Made by a program: the position numbers and the translations under genes | The notes under the pieces: model-generated | Told to the model about the DNA's origin: nothing | The model's input: the letters and a program-made list of their open reading frames with translations, nothing else | Database searches by the model: none | Shown: piece after piece, positions 4,217-18,896 of the stretch | How the letters are laid out: every line of letters starts with the position of its first letter | How positions within the stretch are numbered: position 1 is the stretch's first letter | IMG/VR virus record: IMGVR_UViG_3300009774_000031 | Location: 1-20,183 of that record | Direction: 5' to 3' (one strand) | DNA from: a virus | Length of the DNA: 20,183 nt

Positions 4217-4242
4217 CCGGGCCGGACTTGGCGAAAGAACCT

Positions 4243-4343
4243 CGTCATTGCGAGCCGCTCTTGCGGCGTGGCAATCCAGGGGCCGTAGGTACGATCCTGA
4301 CCGCCCCTGGATTGCCACGGCGCAAGCGCGCCTCGCAATGACG
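4243..4343 (+). repeat. Palindromic interspersed repeat, copy 2
   Basis: Begins CGTCATTGCGAGCCGCTC and ends CGCCTCGCAATGACG, with the inner pair AATCCAGGGGC / GCCCCTGGATT. Same orientation as copy 1. It ends 24 bases before the ATG at 4368, leaving only an AAGGA ribosome-binding site between hairpin and start. Confidence 0.92.
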
Positions 4344-8868: not shown

Positions 8869-9839
8869 TCGACGCCTACGAGATCGGCATCAACCTGGCC
8901 TTGCAGGACGGCGTGAGCGCCGGGCTGGAGGTCATCATCCGCGAGCTGTCCGCGCTGGACGCCGCCGTGGCCGCCAGCGCGTCGCGCTTGCAGGCGTTCA
9001 TGGGGCAGGCCCAGGCCGCCGCGGCTGTGGCGGCGCGCACGGCGGGGCCGGTTGCTGTGGCGGCACCGGCGGCGGAAGCCGCCGTGCCGCCTGCGCTGCC
9101 CGGGCTACGCGCCGCCGAAGCGCCTGCTGCGCCTGGTGTTGCCGCGGCGCCCGCGCCCGCCGCACCGGCCAGCATCCCGCCAGTGCGCGTGGCCGCTGCC
9201 GCACCTGCATTGCCGCCCGCCGTGCTGCCCATGCCGCGCGCCGATGCCGCCGCGCCGGCCCCTGCCACGCCGGGCCTGGTCCAGGCCGCACCCGCGCCGC
9301 CTGCCGGGCCGCCATCTGCTGCCCCGGCTCCAGCCCAGGTGGTTCGTATCGCCGCCGCCCCCCCGGCCAGCCCGGCAGCGTCCGTGCCACCCCGGGCGCC
9401 GCCCTCCACCGCCCGCCCGGCCGCGCCGCGCGTCGAGGTCGCGATGCTGCTGCCCCAGCCTGCGCCCAGCCCGGCAGCGCCAGTCCCCGCCGCCCCGATG
9501 CCGCCGGCGCCAACCGCCCCGCTGCCCACCGCGCCGCCCACAGCAATCCGCGCCGCCATGCCGCCCCTGCTGCCCCGCCTTCCGCCCGCTGCGCCCATGG
9601 TTCCCGTCGCGCCCACGCCCGCCATGCCCGCCGCCGCCCCCTTCGCCGCCCGCCCCGCCGCCCCGCCGCCCCCGACACAGGACGGCGGGCAGCGCGGTGG
9701 CGACGTGGTGCTGGACGGCCGCCTCGTGGGCCATTGGCTCGCCGACCGCATGGGCCGCGACGCCGCCCGGCCAGGTGCCGGCACCACCGGCTTCGACCCC
9801 CGCCAGTCCCCGGCCTGGACGCCCGCCGGGTCACAATAG
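8865..9839 (+). CDS. Pro/Ala-rich protein in the tape-measure position
   Basis: Starts at the ATG at 8865, after a strong AGAGAGGA (8851-8858); an ATG at 8829 has no such signal. The 324-residue protein has an ordered N-terminal part (YEIGINLALQDGVSAGLEVI, then a helix DAAVAASASRLQAFMGQAQA). Residues 57-280 are almost wholly Ala, Pro, Val and Met in low-complexity repeats. The compact C-terminus contains VVLDGRLVGHWLADRMGRDA and DPRQSPAW. Contractile phages encode the tape measure protein right after the chaperones, and no other candidate exists here. The DGRxVGxWLAxxM ending is familiar from proteins in this position of alphaproteobacterial prophages. It lacks the long coiled coils and membrane helices of typical tape measures and is very short for that role. 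The function is inferred from position. Confidence 0.6.
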   Translation: MIDAYEIGINLALQDGVSAGLEVIIRELSALDAAVAASASRLQAFMGQAQAAAAVAARTAGPVAVAAPAAEAAVPPALPGLRAAEAPAAPGVAAAPAPAAPASIPPVRVAAAAPALPPAVLPMPRADAAAPAPATPGLVQAAPAPPAGPPSAAPAPAQVVRIAAAPPASPAASVPPRAPPSTARPAAPRVEVAMLLPQPAPSPAAPVPAAPMPPAPTAPLPTAPPTAIRAAMPPLLPRLPPAAPMVPVAPTPAMPAAAPFAARPAAPPPPTQDGGQRGGDVVLDGRLVGHWLADRMGRDAARPGAGTTGFDPRQSPAWTPAGSQ

Positions 9840-9843
9840 AAAC

Positions 9844-9942
9844 CGTCATTGCGAGCCGCTTGCGGCGCGGCAATCCAGGGGCGGCCAGGACCGCGCTTCC
9901 GGCCCCTGGATTGCCACGGCGCAAGCGCGCCTCGCAATGACG
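9844..9942 (+). repeat. Palindromic interspersed repeat, copy 4
   Basis: Begins CGTCATTGCGAGCCGCTTGC and ends CGCCTCGCAATGACG, with the inner pair AATCCAGGGGC / GCCCCTGGATT. It begins four bases after the stop of the Pro/Ala-rich gene and is followed by 43 bases with an AAGGAG site before the next ATG. Confidence 0.92.
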
Positions 9943-10713: not shown

Positions 10714-11665
10714 GCAACCCCGGCTCCGCATCCTGGCGGACGGCGCCGCGCTGCCCGGCGCCCTGTCCGCCGACATCAGCACCAACAACCACCTCGCTGC
10801 CGACCGCTTCCGACTGCGCCTGGCCGCCCGCGGCCTGGATCCGGCGGCGCTGGCCGGGCGGCTGGACATCCAGGTCGGGCTGGACGGCGGCTGGACCAGC
10901 CTGCTGCTCGGCATCGCCGACAGCCTGCACCTGGACCCGATCCGCGGCACCCTGGACGTGGAGGGCCGCGACCTGTCCGCCGCGCTGGTGGAGGCCCGGA
11001 CGGACGAGACGTTCGCCAACCGCACCAGCAGCGAGGTCGCCACCGCCTTCGCCGCCCGGCACGGCCTGGATGCGGACGTGACCACGACCAGCACGCCCAT
11101 CGGCCGCCTGTATGGCAACGAGCGGGACAGGCTGACGGTGGGCCACGCCCGTGCGGCCACGGAATGGGATCTGCTGGCGGCCCTAGCCGGGCAGGAGGGG
11201 TTCGACCTGTTCATGGACGGCCCCCGCCTGCACTTCGGCCCGCCGTCCACCGACGCCCCGGTGCCGCTGCCAGTCGGCGGCTGCGTGGCGCTGGAAGTGG
11301 AGCACTGCCTGGCCCTGGCGGACCTGCGCGTGCAGGTGCGGAGCTGGGGCAGCCGGGGCGCGTCGGCGGTGGAGGCGTCCGCCGGGTCGGGCGCGCGCCT
11401 GCACGGCCTGGTGCGCCCGAACCTATCGGCGGACGAGGCGCAACGCCTGGCCGACCGGACGCTGGCCGACCTGCGCCGCCACGAATGGGCCGCGCACGTG
11501 ACGATGCCCGGCGAGTTGTCCTTGACCGCGCGCAGCCGGGTGGCGCTGCAAGGCGCGGGCGCCGGGTGGGACCGGGTGCTGGCGGTGTCGGACATCAGCC
11601 GGCACCTGGATGCGCGTCGCGGCTTCTCGCAACGTGTCACGCTACAGGGGTTGGCCGATGGATAA
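10697..11665 (+). CDS. Baseplate hub protein gpD (late control protein D family)
   Basis: A 322-residue protein initiated at GTG 10697, overlapping the gpX gene by 17 bases with a G-rich tract just upstream; TTG at 10703 is an alternative. Supporting features are LRILADGAALPGALSADIST, a beta-rich N-terminal half with VQVGLDGGW-like text, VEGRDLSAALVEARTDETFA, SEVATAFAARHGLDADVTTT and EWDLLAALAGQEGFDLFMDG. The YGNERDRL and 'AxExDLLxxLAxxEGFxLxxxG' patterns are characteristic of gpD and VgrG-N-type hub proteins. A trimer forms the baseplate hub connecting tube and spike. It overlaps the next gene by eight bases. Confidence 0.82.
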   Translation: MALELRQPRLRILADGAALPGALSADISTNNHLAADRFRLRLAARGLDPAALAGRLDIQVGLDGGWTSLLLGIADSLHLDPIRGTLDVEGRDLSAALVEARTDETFANRTSSEVATAFAARHGLDADVTTTSTPIGRLYGNERDRLTVGHARAATEWDLLAALAGQEGFDLFMDGPRLHFGPPSTDAPVPLPVGGCVALEVEHCLALADLRVQVRSWGSRGASAVEASAGSGARLHGLVRPNLSADEAQRLADRTLADLRRHEWAAHVTMPGELSLTARSRVALQGAGAGWDRVLAVSDISRHLDARRGFSQRVTLQGLADG

Positions 11666-12173
11666 GCTGATCAACGCCATCAAGGGCCACACCGCGGCGC
11701 AGGACGCCGCCGCCGGGCAGCCGCGGTTCGGGGTTGTCACGTCCGTCGATCCGCAGGCCGGCACGGCGCGGGTGCAGTTGCAGCCGGAGGGCGTGCTGAC
11801 GGGCTGGCTGCCGCTGCTCAGCCCCTGGGTAGGCGCAGGCTGGGGCCTGAGCTGCCCGCCGTCGCCGGGCGACCAGGTGCTGGTATTGGCGCAGGAGGGC
11901 GACGCCGAGCACGGCGTGATCGCCGGCCGCGCGTGGAGCAGCAAGGCCCAGGCGCCGGCCGCCCCGGTGGGGGAGCTGTGGCTGACGCACAAAAGCGGCT
12001 CCTGGCTGCGCCTGCTGAACGACGGCACGGTGTCGGTGCGGGGCGACCTGCACGTCGATGGCGACGTGTATGACCGCACGGGGTCACTGGACCGGCTGCG
12101 CGGGCGCTACAACGCGCACACCCACGCGGACCCGCAGGGCGGCAAGACCTTGGCGGCGGTGCCGCAGGATTAG
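11658..12173 (+). CDS. Baseplate assembly protein V (membrane-piercing spike)
   Basis: A 171-residue protein starting at the ATG at 11658. An OB-fold-like N-terminal domain contains FGVVTSVDPQAGTARVQLQP, WLPLLSPWVGAGWGLSCPPS and GDQVLVLAQEGDAEHGVIAG, the hallmark of Phage_base_V proteins. Next comes a beta-repeat tail (LHVDGDVYDRTGSL) and YNAHTHADPQGG near the end, where the His-x-His pair matches the metal-coordinating tip of P2 gpV spikes. The trimer forms the cell-puncturing needle. It is normally followed immediately by gpW; here the two are separated by about 2.76 kb of cargo. Confidence 0.85.
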   Translation: MDKLINAIKGHTAAQDAAAGQPRFGVVTSVDPQAGTARVQLQPEGVLTGWLPLLSPWVGAGWGLSCPPSPGDQVLVLAQEGDAEHGVIAGRAWSSKAQAPAAPVGELWLTHKSGSWLRLLNDGTVSVRGDLHVDGDVYDRTGSLDRLRGRYNAHTHADPQGGKTLAAVPQD

Positions 12174-12299
12174 GGGTAGCCTGCCAACCTGCCATTCCAT
12201 AGCAACTACTGTGACAGGAACAATTTCCGCTAATAGGCTCTAGTAGGAGACCGTCGTCCGTGTCATGCGGATGGTTCATGTCTGTTGAGTGCTTGCCTG
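12174..12299 (+). promoter_or_regulatory. AT-richer leader of the cargo island, possible promoter (weak)
   Basis: GC content falls abruptly after the gpV stop. GTGACA at 12211-12216 differs from a -35 box at one position. It is followed 17 bases later by TAGGCT (12234-12239), and alternatively TAATAG begins at 12231 with 14-base spacing. Neither is a strong -10 box. The symmetrical GGAACAATTTCC (12217-12228) between them could be an operator half-site pair. A seven-codon frame from the ATG at 12265 ends at 12288, just before the next gene. An independent promoter for the island is plausible but unproven. Confidence 0.22.
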
Positions 12300-13445
12300 A
12301 TGAAGCTCCTCACCGAGCGCCGCCGCCGCTGGTTCGCACGACGCAGACACTATGAGGCGAAACGCAAATCGCGAAAGCTTCACCCGAAGCTGATACAAGT
12401 CCTTGTGGCTGGAAGTTCCTTTGTCGCACCGGCGGGACGTGCAGAGCCTATGCCCGAAGTCCTATGTTTTGACGAGGACTGTCAAGGCACCGTCGAGGCT
12501 CTCGCGCAGGTTCGCAATCGGCTGTTCACGCCGATAAGAGGCGGCACGCAGCTCAGGCTACGTCGAATAGGAAACCGTCGGCAGATTAGCACGGGTAGTT
12601 ACAAAGCACTTGAATGCATCAAGCGGATCACCCCAGCAGCAGCTCTAGTGTTGGCAGCGGAGTACGACCGGGTCGGAGAGATCGCCAAGAAGCCTCAGGC
12701 CCTGGTGAACATACCTGCATGGGATACGTCGGTTCGGACCATGCTGCAGGGAATTGGCTTCTTGGCACTATTTGGCATTGTAGATGGCGATGCTACATCG
12801 ACAGATGTTGGTGGCACGGCTGTGCTGCGCATGAGGACCGGCAGAACTCACGATCCAGTTGCGATCAATGACCTTGTGGAGAGCTTGAAGCTTCTCTTTC
12901 CTGCCTCGGATCACCCTGATCAAGCTAAGACAATGGGCCTATTTGGGGCGCTTACCGAGGCAGTCGGAAACGTTGTCCACCATGCCTATCCTGCAAACGG
13001 AACATACATCGCACCGCACGTTGGGCGCTGGTGGATGACAGGTGCTGTGGATCGCGATGCCGGTTGGACTGCTGCTGCAGTGTATGACCAAGGGACGACG
13101 ATCCCGGTGAGCTTGCCAGACTGGGCGAACTATCCGGGAGTGAAACGCCGCGTTATAGAGATGGCACAGCGGCTACAACTGACCCATGAGGCGGGGTCTC
13201 CACGATGGGATGGACATGCGATTGAGGCTGCGGTGGAGGAGTCTTCCACGTCAACTGGCTTATCCGGTCGTGGACATGGGTTGGCGCAGATGCGAGAGTT
13301 CGTTGACGCCTGCCAGGATGGGCGCCTACGAATCCTAAGCAGATACGGGGAGGTTGTCTTCCGACCCAATCAGAGACCATATGTCAACCATCATCGTGCT
13401 CCTATCTCCGGAACCCTGGTTGAGTGGAGCGTTCTTCTTCGATGA
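12300..13445 (+). CDS. GHKL/HATPase-type ATP-binding protein (cargo island gene 1)
   Basis: Starts at the ATG at 12300 (381 residues); a TTG at 12285 adds five residues. The first 35 residues are very basic (ERRRRWFARRRHYEAKRKSR). Counting from the TTG, the N-terminal 200 residues carry a possible STAS-like or receiver-type region I cannot name, including FDEDCQGTVEALAQVRNRL. The C-terminal half has the GHKL ATP-binding boxes: N box LTEAVGNVVHHAY (E225, N229), G1 box YDQGTTIP (D268, G270), and G2 box GRGHGLAQM (328-336), ending GTLVEWSVLL. Anti-sigma kinases of the SpoIIAB/RsbW type use this domain to bind ATP and phosphorylate STAS partners. The next gene is STAS-like, which fits such a pair. 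Codon use (AGA, ATA, TAT) differs sharply from the phage genes, indicating foreign origin. Confidence 0.82.
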   Translation: MKLLTERRRRWFARRRHYEAKRKSRKLHPKLIQVLVAGSSFVAPAGRAEPMPEVLCFDEDCQGTVEALAQVRNRLFTPIRGGTQLRLRRIGNRRQISTGSYKALECIKRITPAAALVLAAEYDRVGEIAKKPQALVNIPAWDTSVRTMLQGIGFLALFGIVDGDATSTDVGGTAVLRMRTGRTHDPVAINDLVESLKLLFPASDHPDQAKTMGLFGALTEAVGNVVHHAYPANGTYIAPHVGRWWMTGAVDRDAGWTAAAVYDQGTTIPVSLPDWANYPGVKRRVIEMAQRLQLTHEAGSPRWDGHAIEAAVEESSTSTGLSGRGHGLAQMREFVDACQDGRLRILSRYGEVVFRPNQRPYVNHHRAPISGTLVEWSVLLR

Positions 13446-13460
13446 GCAGGACGGTGCGAG

Positions 13461-13805
13461 ATGACGACGTTGCGGGTTAAAGACTATGCGGCCGCGCCTG
13501 GTGGGCGCTACCGCAAGGACGGGCCGTATAGCGGTGAGGAGTTCCGGGACGACATCCTCGTCCCCCGGCTCTTGGATGCTGTGACCCGGAACGAGCAGGT
13601 CGTGGTCGAGCTGGACGGCGTGTCTGGCTACGGCTCGTCGTTCCTGGAGGAGGTCTTCGGAGGCCTCGTTCGCCGCGGCGTGATCGCACAGCAGGACGTT
13701 GCACGGTTGCTGCAGGTGCTTGCTAAGGAACACCTGTTCAAGCCGCAGCAGATGCTTGTCGAACGCTACATGCGGCGCGCGCAGGAGATGATGCCACAAG
13801 GCTAG
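13461..13805 (+). CDS. STAS-like DUF4325 protein (cargo island gene 2)
   Basis: A 114-residue protein 15 bases after the ATPase stop, with GGACGG upstream. The signature GYGSSFLEEVFGGLVRRG (residues 56-73) is the core of DUF4325, a STAS-like domain in which a Ser-Ser-Phe-Leu-Asp/Glu-Glu segment marks the helix that takes phosphate in true STAS antagonists. The preceding strand VVVELDGV (residues 47-54) and N-terminal FRDDILVPRL agree. DUF4325 proteins are commonly encoded next to HATPase proteins, and together they resemble a partner-switching pair. Its role here is probably to bind the ATPase and relay a signal. Composition is between that of the ATPase gene and the phage genes. Confidence 0.82.
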   Translation: MTTLRVKDYAAAPGGRYRKDGPYSGEEFRDDILVPRLLDAVTRNEQVVVELDGVSGYGSSFLEEVFGGLVRRGVIAQQDVARLLQVLAKEHLFKPQQMLVERYMRRAQEMMPQG

Positions 13806-13822
13806 AGGCTCCGTTCAGCGGC

Positions 13823-14317
13823 GTGCTGCCCGTTTGGGTTGTCCCCGTCGTCACCTTCGGGTCCGCAATCCTCGGATCGATGGTGGCGTTTGGCGTCCAG
13901 CGGCGGCGTTACATTACCGACCGCCTGGCTGCTTCCATCGACGGCCTGTGCAGCGAAATCAACAACGCTGCTGACAAGGCGACCTCCTACTGGTTGACGG
14001 AGGGCGACACAGATACGGCCCGCGTTCTGTTGCGCCTGGCCGAATACGAGCTTGTGGGTCGCCAGAGCCGCATCCAGGAACTGATCGGTGCGCTGTATAT
14101 TCAGGATGAGCGGCTGGTCATTGCCGACCTCGACGACCTGATAATCAGCCTTATCGATGCCATGACCGGCGGCGACTTCCGCGTGACAGGCCGCCCGTAT
14201 GACCCGTTTCGTGCCGCCGAGGTGCAGACCGTCGCGGCCCGGCTGAACGGTTGTCTGCGCGCTGGGCTGAGCCGCCATGTCCGCGGCTGGGTTCAGCGTC
14301 CATTCAGATGGCGTTAA
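13823..14317 (+). CDS. Small protein with N-terminal membrane helix (cargo island gene 3, unknown function)
   Basis: A 164-residue protein starting at the GTG at 13823, 17 bases after the DUF4325 stop; no ATG offers a better start and the ribosome-binding signal is weak. Residues 3-24 (PVWVVPVVTFGSAILGSMVA and following) form one clear membrane helix, followed by a basic QRRRY stop-transfer stretch, so the rest lies in the cytoplasm. The cytoplasmic part is helical and includes IDGLCSEINNAADKATSYW, ARVLLRLAEYELVGRQSRIQ, ELIGALYIQ and DLDDLIISLIDAMTGGDF. No family is recognised. As the third gene of the ATPase/STAS-like set it is a candidate membrane effector or anchor, a common architecture in abortive defence systems; this is inference. 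Confidence 0.62.
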   Translation: MLPVWVVPVVTFGSAILGSMVAFGVQRRRYITDRLAASIDGLCSEINNAADKATSYWLTEGDTDTARVLLRLAEYELVGRQSRIQELIGALYIQDERLVIADLDDLIISLIDAMTGGDFRVTGRPYDPFRAAEVQTVAARLNGCLRAGLSRHVRGWVQRPFRWR

Positions 14318-14360
14318 AGACGTAGCCTGCGTGAAGCACATTGCTTTCATGAAAGGCGTC

Positions 14361-14645
14361 ATGCACCCTCTCACCATCCGGCCTAACGTTGCCGACAACG
14401 CCACCCCCCGCGTGGTGAACCCGGCCATCCTGGGCGGCACGCCGGTCGTGGGCGGCACGCGGGTTCCCGCGGCGACTCTGGTGGATTCTCTGCTCCACGG
14501 GTATCCCGACTAGGACATCATGGACGACTACCCCACCCTGCCCGCAGACTGGCGCGGCGCCGTCAAGGCCTGGGCGGATGGCACATTCGGCCCGGGGTGG
14601 CGCCGGCCCGCGACTGCCGCCCATAGGCGCTGCAAAGGCTTTTGA
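14361..14645 (+). pseudogene. Broken DUF433 antitoxin gene (amber codon inside)
   Basis: From the ATG at 14361 (14349 is an in-frame alternative) the protein reads VVNPAILGGTPVVGGTRVPA and SLLHGYPD, the classic DUF433 core (ILGGxPVxxGTRVP...L...GY). A TAG at 14511-14513 interrupts it. The same frame then continues DIMDDYPTLPADW, exactly what should follow in DUF433 (E-E-I-L-x-D-Y-P-x-L), and runs to TGA at 14643-14645. A single base change from GAG to TAG would explain the break. DUF433 proteins are antitoxins for DUF5615-type PIN-like toxins, whose remnant follows directly. Confidence 0.78.
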
Positions 14646-14758
14646 TCGACGAGTGCCTGTCTAAGGCGCTTGTCCAAGTCGCGGTTGGCCGCGGCTACCC
14701 CGCCGACTTCGTGCCGCACATCGGCAAGGCCGGCCTGTCCGACCGTGACCATCCCTTG
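14642..14758 (+). pseudogene. Truncated DUF5615-type PIN-like toxin gene
   Basis: The TTG at 14642 overlaps the antitoxin stop (TTGA), the usual coupling of such pairs. The frame begins LIDECLSKALVQVAVGRGYP and continues ADFVPHIGKAGLSDRD, the N-terminal signature of DUF5615 PIN-like toxins (LLIDECLSPALV...G...H...GKAGLxDWD), including the acidic Asp-Glu pair expected at the nuclease site. After about 39 residues it runs into the palindromic repeat at 14757, and the remaining two thirds are gone. With its antitoxin also broken, this toxin-antitoxin module is dead. Confidence 0.72.
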
Positions 14759-14856
14759 TCGTTGCGAGGCGCGCTTGCGCCGCGGCATGGGGGGGCGGCC
14801 AGGACTGCGATGACGGCCCCTGGACTGCCGCGCCGCCAGAGCGGCTCGCAATGACG
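14757..14856 (-). repeat. Palindromic interspersed repeat, copy 5 (opposite orientation)
   Basis: Begins GTTGCGAGGCGCGCTTGCGC and ends GAGCGGCTCGCAATGACG, which is the reverse complement of the arm order in the other copies. It truncates the DUF5615 remnant, so it arrived after, or together with, the decay of that gene. It is more diverged than the other full-length copies. The 78 bases from here to the ATG at 14935 hold nothing recognised except the GGAG site of the next gene. Confidence 0.88.
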
Positions 14857-14934
14857 ATGCCCTAACACAAGGGTCATAGCGCAAGGCCGCATGACACTGC
14901 GCCCCTGACGCCTCCAGCCCCCGGAGCACCCGCA

Positions 14935-16419: not shown

Positions 16420-16961
16420 GGGGCGACGGGACGGACATCCTCCGCCGCCTGCGCCTGGCGTTGCCCCGGCGCTGGTTCGCCGACGACGCCCCTGTGCTGG
16501 ATGGCTTGCTGTCCGGCCTGGCGTCGCCCTGGTCCGGGTTATACGCCTTGTTGCAGGAAGTGCGCCGGCAATCGCGCATCGCCACCGCGACCGGCGCGTT
16601 CCTGGATGGCGCTGGCGCCGACCTGTTCGGCGGCACCCTGCCGCGCCGCGCGGGGGAGGCCGACGACCCTTACCGCGCCCGTATCGCCCGTGCGCTCCGC
16701 CGCGCCCGCGCCACCCGCGCCGGGCTGCTGGACGCGGCGGCGGAGGCCGGCAGCACCGCCCGGGTGTTCGAGCCGGCGCGGCCCCCCGACACCGGGGTCT
16801 ATAACGGCCCCGGCCTGGCCTGGGGCGTGGCCGGCGGCTGGGGGTCCCTGCAGATGCCGCTGGAGTGCCTGGTGACGCTTCAACCCGACACGCCTGACGC
16901 CCGCGCCGCCCTGGCCGCCGCGCTGCCGGCTGGCGGCGCGGCTTGGGTGCGGGGCGCTTAG
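16416..16961 (+). CDS. Baseplate/tail protein gpI-like
   Basis: A 181-residue protein starting at the ATG at 16416, overlapping the gpJ stop by four bases. Features are LLSGLASPWSGLYALLQEVR, RIATATGAFLDGAGADLFGG, LPRRAGEADDPYRARIARAL and RARATRAGLLDAAAEAGSTA, with a C-terminal VTLQPDTPDARAALAAALPA. The first part resembles the 'LD.iA.D.lG..L.R..gEsD..YR.RI' pattern of gpI-type and Mu gp48-type proteins, which attach tail fibres to the baseplate. Its stop overlaps the stop of the convergent minus-strand gene (TTAG at 16958-16961). The next plus-strand gene is the tail fibre, in keeping with this role. Confidence 0.75.
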   Translation: MRGDGTDILRRLRLALPRRWFADDAPVLDGLLSGLASPWSGLYALLQEVRRQSRIATATGAFLDGAGADLFGGTLPRRAGEADDPYRARIARALRRARATRAGLLDAAAEAGSTARVFEPARPPDTGVYNGPGLAWGVAGGWGSLQMPLECLVTLQPDTPDARAALAAALPAGGAAWVRGA

Positions 16962-17446
16962 CCCCCCTGGCCCCGGCCCGCGCAGGCCCCCAGTGCCTTG
17001 ATCGCTGCGGCCGAGCCGACCAGCGGCTCCTCGTATTCCTTCTCCGCCACCTCCAGCGTCAGCGCGTTGCCGGCGGCGAAGTCGGTGAACACCTTGTTGG
17101 GGTTCTCGACCGGCACGACGACCATGTGGGTGTCCGCCGCGACGCCCTGGCCCAGCACCGCCTTGCCGCCGTCCACCTGGAACCGCACCGGGTAGATCTT
17201 GCCCTCGGTCAGTTTCGCGTCCGGCTCCATCACCAGGAAGAAGGTCTCGCCGGCCTTGGTGGCGGCGAAGCCGACCATGGACTTGTCCTCGTATGTCAGC
17301 GTGGCGATGCAGGACTTGAAGCTGCCGTCGTCGTTGCGGCTATCGACCACCTTCCAGTCGCCGACCTCAATGGTGCCCCCGGCCTTCTGCGCCAGGGCAG
17401 GGGACGCAAACGCGCCCAACAGGGCGGCGGCAAGGATCAGTCGCAT
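16958..17446 (-). CDS. Small exported protein, antisense within the tail module (cargo)
   Basis: A 162-residue protein starting at the ATG complementary to 17444-17446, with GGAGACC upstream. MRLILAAALLGAFASPALA followed by Gln is a typical Sec signal peptide (n, h and c regions with Ala-x-Ala at residues 17-19), so a periplasmic or secreted protein is expected. The mature part has GDWKVVDSRNDDGSFKSCIA, SMVGFAATKAGETFFLVMEP, KIYPVRFQVDGG and two Cys that could form a disulfide. It weakly recalls IalB-type secreted proteins (a GDW start and central Cys), but the match is not firm. It is the only antisense gene here and is convergent with gpI; such genes in phage structural operons are often lysogenic-conversion genes expressed from their own promoter. 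No promoter was identified in the 92 bases upstream. Confidence 0.7.
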   Translation of the reverse strand: MRLILAAALLGAFASPALAQKAGGTIEVGDWKVVDSRNDDGSFKSCIATLTYEDKSMVGFAATKAGETFFLVMEPDAKLTEGKIYPVRFQVDGGKAVLGQGVAADTHMVVVPVENPNKVFTDFAAGNALTLEVAEKEYEEPLVGSAAAIKALGACAGRGQGG

Positions 17447-17538
17447 CGGTGGTCTCCATTGTTCCCGGACCCGTGACGGTAAACCCCCGGCGATCCTACG
17501 CAATCCCCAGTGAACAAATCCCTACACGGAGGCCCCCC

Positions 17539-18797: not shown

Positions 18798-18896
18798 CGT
18801 CATTGCGAGCCACTTGCGGCGTGGCAATCCAGGGGCCGCCAGCGCAAGCCCTTGCCGCCCCTGGATTGCCGCGTCGCTGCGCTCCTCGCAATGACA
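18798..18896 (+). repeat. Palindromic interspersed repeat, copy 6
   Basis: Begins CGTCATTGCGAGCCACTTGC with inner pair AATCCAGGGGC / GCCCCTGGATT (one mismatch). The right arm differs from the other copies (CGTCGCTGCGCTCCTCGCAA), so this copy belongs to a slightly different subtype. It lies 15 bases after the fibre stop and ends 21 bases before the next ATG. Confidence 0.88.

Follow-up and report, generated by a model that had tools for sequence, protein, structure and literature searches.

A conserved cassette of kinase-like, STAS-like and membrane protein genes at a cargo site between the gpV and gpW genes of a viral late operon

Three genes between gpV and gpW and the conservation of their order

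The window analysed here is a 20,183-base stretch that makes up the whole of the virus record IMGVR_UViG_3300009774_000031, itself possibly a fragment of the virus, and it carries a contractile-tail late operon. Three open reading frames (ORFs), all on the (+) strand, lie between the gpV and gpW genes and code for a kinase-like protein (K), a STAS-like protein of the DUF4325 family (S) and a small membrane protein (TM3):

12300..13445, (+) strand: K, kinase-like, ATG start, 381 residues; basic N-terminus, STAS-like N-terminal domain and SpoIIAB-like GHKL C-terminal domain
12285-13445, (+) strand: alternative longer form of K, TTG start, 386 residues
13461..13805, (+) strand: S, DUF4325 STAS-like protein, ATG start, 114 residues; Ser59 and Ser60 lie within GYGSSFLEE
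13823..14317, (+) strand: TM3, GTG start, 164 residues; single N-terminal membrane helix and helical bundle, with YWL and TGGxF motifs

An earlier reading of the window, made from the sequence only (hereafter the sequence-only reading), had proposed that a GHKL ATPase, a DUF4325 protein and a 164-residue protein with one N-terminal membrane helix form a module here. All three proteins are as described, and the cassette is real, conserved and more general than that reading saw. The ATG at position 12300 is the better start for K, because many homologs open with MKKL[TS]; residues E225 and N229, singled out earlier in the 386-residue numbering, are E220 and N224 when counted from it. The start codon of TM3 is uncertain, as a relative (locus L012; loci carry L numbers throughout) has no ATG, GTG or TTG at that place.

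Six viral loci, among them L009 with a sequence identical to that of the window, encode a closely related kinase; S comes next in all six and TM3 in five, the remaining locus, L027, ending after S. The order K–S–TM3 is also found in 11 of 12 loci on bacterial genome contigs, the twelfth (L040) ending within K; the record titles of all 12 name organisms that we take to be Alphaproteobacteria. A small ORF follows each of 11 more distant viral pairs (L014–L024; L017 and L020 are near copies), and hydropathy flags ten of these third ORFs (not that of L014), the TM3 profile recognising only those of L018 and L024.

DUF4325 was found in 16 of 289 alphaproteobacterial genomes (15 above the family cut-off) and in 29 of 398 genomes of the phylum. 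In the samples drawn through DUF4325 the centre genome was left out, and a long kinase with an expectation value (E) below 1e-20 together with a separate DUF4325 gene was required; a small third ORF was in place in 15 of the 16 loci retained, and was identified by profile in 13. Eight of the 16 came from the class sample (18 DUF4325 places), where the third ORF was present in all and matched the profile in seven (not in L055, whose product has an N-terminus that is hydrophobic by eye). The places set aside were five fusions to DUF4325 (L051, L052, L054, L056 and L066), a VapK/VapS-like pair (L063; see below), two loci not resolved by profiles (L062 and L065), one with S and TM3 that is cut by the contig end (L064), and the centre genome (L050, the same locus as L029). 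The phylum sample comprised 31 DUF4325 places, 30 of them with loci and 29 of these new, and gave eight loci with a long kinase at the same threshold; the kinase of L122 is cut by the contig start, and the matches of L112 and L124 begin at profile position 51. The third ORF was found in seven of the eight and the profile matched in six (not in L126, flagged by hydropathy, nor in L130). Elsewhere in this sample, L121 carries S and TM3 alongside a short GHKL protein, L113 has the VapKSC layout (see below), and the others are fusions, VapS-like or without a profile match.

The reverse search of the 289 genomes, with the centre genome included, gave nine strong matches to K (E below 1e-50), all adjoining DUF4325, and two weak ones that adjoin it within fused proteins. 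Six of eight TM3 matches adjoin DUF4325, the other two (L167 and L169) being unrelated proteins, one RmuC-like by eye; this TM3 search is insensitive, since a local profile sees third genes in L058, L059 and L061 that escaped it, and is weak evidence. In named phage and plasmid records the third gene is in place in five of five cases, and the profile matches four (not L070). Judged by gene order, the third gene belongs to the cassette, and the co-occurrence of all three genes, on which the sequence-only reading depended, is borne out by the bacterial contigs and by the long-kinase loci.

The gpV–gpW junction as a cargo site, and other locations

The features that border the cassette in the window are:

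11610..12173, (+) strand: gpV-like baseplate spike gene, the left border (Phage_base_V, 1.7e-12)
14277..14720, (+) strand: neighbouring cargo, a decayed DUF433 gene (match 5e-7) and a fragment of its likely partner, presumably PIN-like; kin occupy the same junction in L172 and L175
14935..15303, (+) strand: gpW-like baseplate wedge gene, the right border (PHROG baseplate protein, 6e-5)

We surveyed this junction in 79 related contigs in which gpV and gpW are both present (from the best 80 of 144 gpV loci, five duplicate rows removed). The two genes are separated by at most 25 bp in 57 of the 79, by 26–350 bp in 15 and by more than 350 bp in seven; because they lie so close together in the 57 contigs, the three-gene block is an insertion. 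The G+C content of K, S and TM3 (57.0, 63.5 and 63.0%) against that of gpV, gpW and gpJ (72.7, 75.6 and 77.0%) agrees with the earlier remark that the composition is unlike that of the flanks, and the placement of the genes on one strand between gpV and gpW was also correctly described. Among the seven longer inserts, L009 holds K–S–TM3 and L170 holds S–TM3. By eye, L171 holds a PIN-like protein and an HTH (helix-turn-helix) antitoxin-like gene, L172 and L175 a DUF433 pair, L176 an unassignable gene set and L180 a secreted-like protein; toxin–antitoxin-like cargo thus fills three of the six other occupied sites (L171, L172 and L175). L013, outside the 79 contigs, is an additional carrier of S–TM3. 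The junction of gpV and gpW serves as a cargo site, seemingly with a preference for toxin–antitoxin-like genes. No clear repeats were detected flanking the insert, and promoter and terminator scans gave nothing exceeding shuffled sequences.

The cassette is not confined to this junction; as the sequence-only reading would lead one to expect, it is present in other mobile elements. In unrelated prophage contigs (gene names by eye) it lies after an NlpC/P60-like gene (L010), between prohead protease-like and capsid-like genes (L011), after a lysozyme-like gene (L026) and near an integrase-like gene (L028), and in Marinobacter phage AS1 a single gene separates it from a Cro/CI-type regulator. It also occurs on plasmids of Vibrio, Leptospira, Acinetobacter and Novosphingobium, the Vibrio and Leptospira copies lying close to toxin–antitoxin genes; on the Novosphingobium plasmid (L072) an unannotated TM3 gene at 9117-9689 overlaps the end of the STAS-like gene. 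The same gene order thus spans Alphaproteobacteria, Gammaproteobacteria and a Leptospira plasmid. For Francisella phage KIRK we used the gene order given in a published table (PMC7924643): the repressor gene is followed by that of a hypothetical protein (AS1, 23%, as the best match among phages), that of a DUF4325 protein and that of a transmembrane protein, and the third gene after these is the integrase gene.

The comparison of neighbourhoods drew on 150 of the 209 genes near 17 loci and, as a control, on 150 of the 205 genes in 13 other regions, which belong to 10 of these genomes. At 1e-10, 93 PADLOC families were matched near the loci and nine in the control, many of the 25 listed being redundant Type I specificity models; matches to DndA/SspA near the loci are probably SufS. 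Phage integrases account for six of the 150 near genes and at most one of the control genes (absent from the 25 listed of 162 families); in a motif scan each set yielded one integrase-like frame. The enrichment of defence and integrase genes is suggestive and serves as no main argument.

Elsewhere in the window, a repeat of about 100 bp occurs at 2296-2411, 4242-4342, 9845-9942, 14758-14857 and 18798-18896; the copies are 80-85% alike on the better strand and match on both strands, as in a palindrome. A phage protein encoded at 524-1462 has a C-terminus that is polymorphic-toxin-like by eye, with no match in the PDB, and is followed by two similar small tandem genes (1459-1812 and about 1700-2159) that could be immunity genes. 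A gene on the (-) strand at 16958-17503, opposite to the late operon and between the gpI-like and fibre genes, has a signal-peptide-like start and no Pfam match, and looks like another cargo gene.

The three proteins and their relation to known kinase–STAS systems

The GHKL boxes of K (N, G1 and G2), recognised in the sequence-only reading, are well preserved: in a 25-member alignment (386-residue numbering) N229, D268, G270, G330 and G332 are present in all members and E225 in 24, with D in one. The Pfam families HATPase_c and HATPase_c_2 match K of the window below their gathering scores only, HATPase_c_2 matching 18 of the 25 aligned proteins (E up to 0.1). In a structural model of K (mean predicted local distance difference test score, pLDDT, 87.4), Foldseek returned SpoIIAB structures as the top three matches, two of them below 0.001. 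Superposition on the SpoIIAB structure 1tid (VIA) gave Z 14.0 and a root-mean-square deviation of 2.5 over 132 residues, confined to residues 172 onward, and RsbW gave Z 13.0; these two proteins are structurally the closest to K. Judged by the model, K carries the SpoIIAB fold in its GHKL part, and by analogy may be active as a kinase. The order of strands and helices in its N-terminal part is STAS-like by eye; hhalign found no similarity between K and S. The K profile gave nothing significant among the sequences of solved structures (best RsbW, 0.13), and no HTH domain was matched in Pfam at E up to 1 on K or S.

S matches DUF4325 above the family cut-off (1e-11) and stops after the STAS domain, with no DNA-binding domain matched in Pfam; its profile found nothing significant among the sequences of solved structures. 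With the fold of K, this match upholds the earlier view of a SpoIIAB/SpoIIAA-type kinase–STAS pair. In a 28-member alignment S60, F61, E64, F66, G68 and R71 are invariant.

TM3 has no match in Pfam, NCBIfam, PADLOC or PHROG at E up to 1, and its profile gave nothing significant among solved-structure sequences. The model is all-helical, with four helices (mean pLDDT 91.9), the first of which (residues 6-58) is hydrophobic by eye in its initial part; YWL and TGGxF are conserved motifs. Positively charged residues tend to remain on the inner side of the membrane (the positive-inside rule), and the arginines that follow the hydrophobic stretch of TM3 suggest on this ground that its helical part is cytoplasmic. 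A structural search of the membrane protein, an avenue raised earlier, returned helical bundles only from the PDB; with Z up to 12.6, below the warning level of about 13 for helical models, these were discounted. The best match among viral models is an unnamed 159-residue protein (E 0.008), of the same length as AS1_39, the gene product at the TM3 position of Marinobacter phage AS1, and may be the same protein.

Two published systems offer precedents. As described in the text of PMC13373217 (EMBO J, June 2026), single-stranded DNA activates CapK, a kinase built of STAS and GHKL domains, which phosphorylates CapS, a STAS protein, on a serine; there is an HTH on CapK and a winged HTH on CapS, and CapS represses an operon that follows. 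The same text describes VapKSC as a STAS-GHKL kinase, a STAS antitoxin and a PIN nuclease toxin; VapS keeps the RNase VapC neutralised, the phosphomimic S48E abolishes inhibition, and the operon gives about 2 log protection against Bas42; in both systems the kinase responds to DNA damage (PMC13373217). Superinfection as such, first given as an example of the trigger, therefore need not be the signal.

In our collection, L113 is an operon of kinase, DUF4325 and PIN genes (PIN E 5e-8) in the VapKSC layout. The K profile matches three VapK-like proteins, those of L113 and two similar kinases, with E 4e-11; the 266 aligned columns take in the N-terminal STAS part. The S profile matches VapS-like proteins with E 2e-7. 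The cassette thus shares with VapKSC a three-gene operon, a kinase with an N-terminal STAS and a C-terminal GHKL part, and a small STAS protein. It differs in that K has about 50 extra N-terminal residues rich in basic ones, the invariant serine of S sits one residue downstream, and the third product is a single-helix membrane protein instead of a PIN RNase. Because the defining PIN toxin was looked for and is absent (TM3 has no Pfam match, an all-helical model and one membrane helix), the cassette is not a member of VapKSC, although by analogy it probably works like it. CapK/CapS likewise pair a STAS-GHKL kinase with a STAS substrate, but S consists of 114 residues of DUF4325 only, and the HTH of that system is unmatched here. 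SpoIIAB/SpoIIAA and RsbW/RsbV share the GHKL serine-kinase fold, boxes included, and a STAS-like partner; they differ from the cassette, where K is extended by a STAS-like domain at its N-terminus, a membrane protein joins the pair and no sigma factor was recognised.

The sequence-only reading had further supposed that the combination may be undescribed. Kinase–STAS–effector operons with a PIN nuclease as the third component are published, so that part does not stand; a version with a membrane effector was not found in the open-licence literature, preprints excluded. The word 'transmembrane' is absent from the text of PMC13373217, datasets apart; 'membrane' occurs there four times, in connection with blots and compounds.

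Related loci gave some observations of their own. L063, L118 and L120 contain VapK/VapS-like pairs with no nuclease gene recognised downstream. A phmmer search with the VapS-like protein of L063 had a single match, 3fPizza6-SH (6ren, E 6e-4), which was dismissed as chance, and found no CapS or VapS entry. In the five fusions named above, DUF4325 ends frames of 350-470 residues with kinase-like matches (except in L066) and no TM3 was seen; that of L054 also has weak winged-HTH matches, and the fusions are perhaps self-contained regulators.

A putative switch with a membrane effector

Because K and S match VapK- and VapS-like proteins and the mechanism of VapKSC is published, we read the cassette as a toxin–antitoxin-like alarm of the abortive-infection type, of the VapKSC kind but with a membrane effector, and give this reading a probability of about 0.53. 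In the resting state S would bind the cytoplasmic helical part of TM3 and keep it harmless. Upon a stress or infection signal (single-stranded DNA in the CapK precedent), K would phosphorylate a serine that lies where the second helix of S begins, and phosphorylated S would let go of TM3. Freed TM3 would then harm or close the inner membrane, and the cell would be stopped before a competing phage is released, to the possible benefit of a lysogen. The SpoIIAB fold of K, the fixed place of the third gene and the toxin–antitoxin-like look of the cargo in three of the six other filled junctions also speak for this reading.

The pattern of gene loss bears on this scheme. K is reduced to residues 356–386 in the prophage relative L012 (on the same contig as L170), was not detected by search in the prophage relative L013, where a remnant is visible by eye, and is split by ISAba14 on the Acinetobacter plasmid L071; S and TM3 are open in all three. 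If S restrains TM3, loss of K with S and TM3 kept is what one would expect, since K would then be the gene safely lost, and the observed losses fit. The ratios of nonsynonymous to synonymous substitution rates (dN/dS) in the prophages, 0.12-0.14 for S and about 0.10 for TM3, are similar to those of gpW and gpV and below that of gpJ; although these values average over periods preceding and following the loss of K, they indicate that S and TM3 are under purifying selection.

Several observations weigh against this reading. TM3 lacks homologs whose function is known, and its fold matches in the PDB are generic. PADLOC-DB 2.0.0 matches none of the three window proteins at E up to 1, and gave only two weak matches on ten relatives (HEC-01B, 0.003; DrmA, 0.002). 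The link to VapKSC and CapKS runs via L113, L063 and L120, which were assigned by gene layout and not by comparison with the published sequences, and no counterpart in K was placed for the residue associated with single-stranded DNA (W68 in CapK, F54 in VapK). The VapS-like register, taken from the alignment of S with the VapS-like profile (the STAS proteins of eight genomes yielded one usable protein), indicates S59, yet this position is Ser or Thr in just 19 of 28 sequences, whereas S60 is Ser in all 28; the phosphoacceptor may be shifted, or located at S60. L130 is a long-kinase locus without the third gene, and its matches to kinase and STAS are the weakest. Finally, three cases of loss are few; K is the longest gene and hence the largest target, and chance may explain why it is lost more often; the retention of S and TM3 also fits a role independent of K.

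A rival reading is superinfection exclusion, in which TM3, without being toxic, would bar phage DNA from entering at the membrane and the K–S pair would only tune TM3. Single-helix membrane proteins of temperate phages often exclude superinfecting phage, the AS1 genes lie next but one to a regulator of the Cro/CI type, and S and TM3 persist without K. The matching gene order in KIRK also falls between repressor and integrase in its gene table (PMC7924643). We nevertheless consider exclusion unlikely: the cassette also resides near toxin–antitoxin genes on plasmids, which have no need to keep out a related phage, and VapS, likewise the STAS protein of an operon in this layout, is described as an antitoxin (PMC13373217). 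Somewhat less probable still is that K and S are the phage's own partner switch, controlling a sigma factor or late transcription, with TM3 as a membrane sensor upstream of K. The structural proximity of K to SpoIIAB and RsbW, both anti-sigma kinases, speaks for it, but the cassette occupies varied places in unrelated prophages and plasmids, the 57 contigs with abutting genes leave no room for it at the junction, S lacks a DNA-binding domain match, and no sigma gene was recognised in the neighbouring ORFs, some of which were scanned. That three unlinked cargo genes met by chance, or are decaying remnants, could be argued from the decay of the neighbouring DUF433 gene and from the relatives without K, but is very improbable: it is contradicted by 11 of 12 bacterial loci, which keep K–S–TM3 in that order, by the recurrence of this order across two proteobacterial classes and a Leptospira plasmid, and by the low dN/dS.

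The toxin–antitoxin-like reading, in its wider form, makes the cassette a widespread and apparently unnamed third branch of the kinase–STAS switches, in which a GHKL kinase sensing single-stranded DNA or infection makes a STAS antitoxin release its dedicated single-helix membrane effector, the whole being swappable cargo of temperate phages, plasmids and chromosomes in several bacterial classes; we see an even chance that this is so. If true, the kinase–STAS switch, linked until now to the repressor CapS and the RNase VapC, would be a general trigger with exchangeable effectors, a membrane one among them, and temperate phages would exchange cassettes of this kind at fixed sites for cargo. It would also suggest a role for the hypothetical genes that stand beside a 'STAS-like domain-containing protein', including the unannotated one on the Novosphingobium plasmid.

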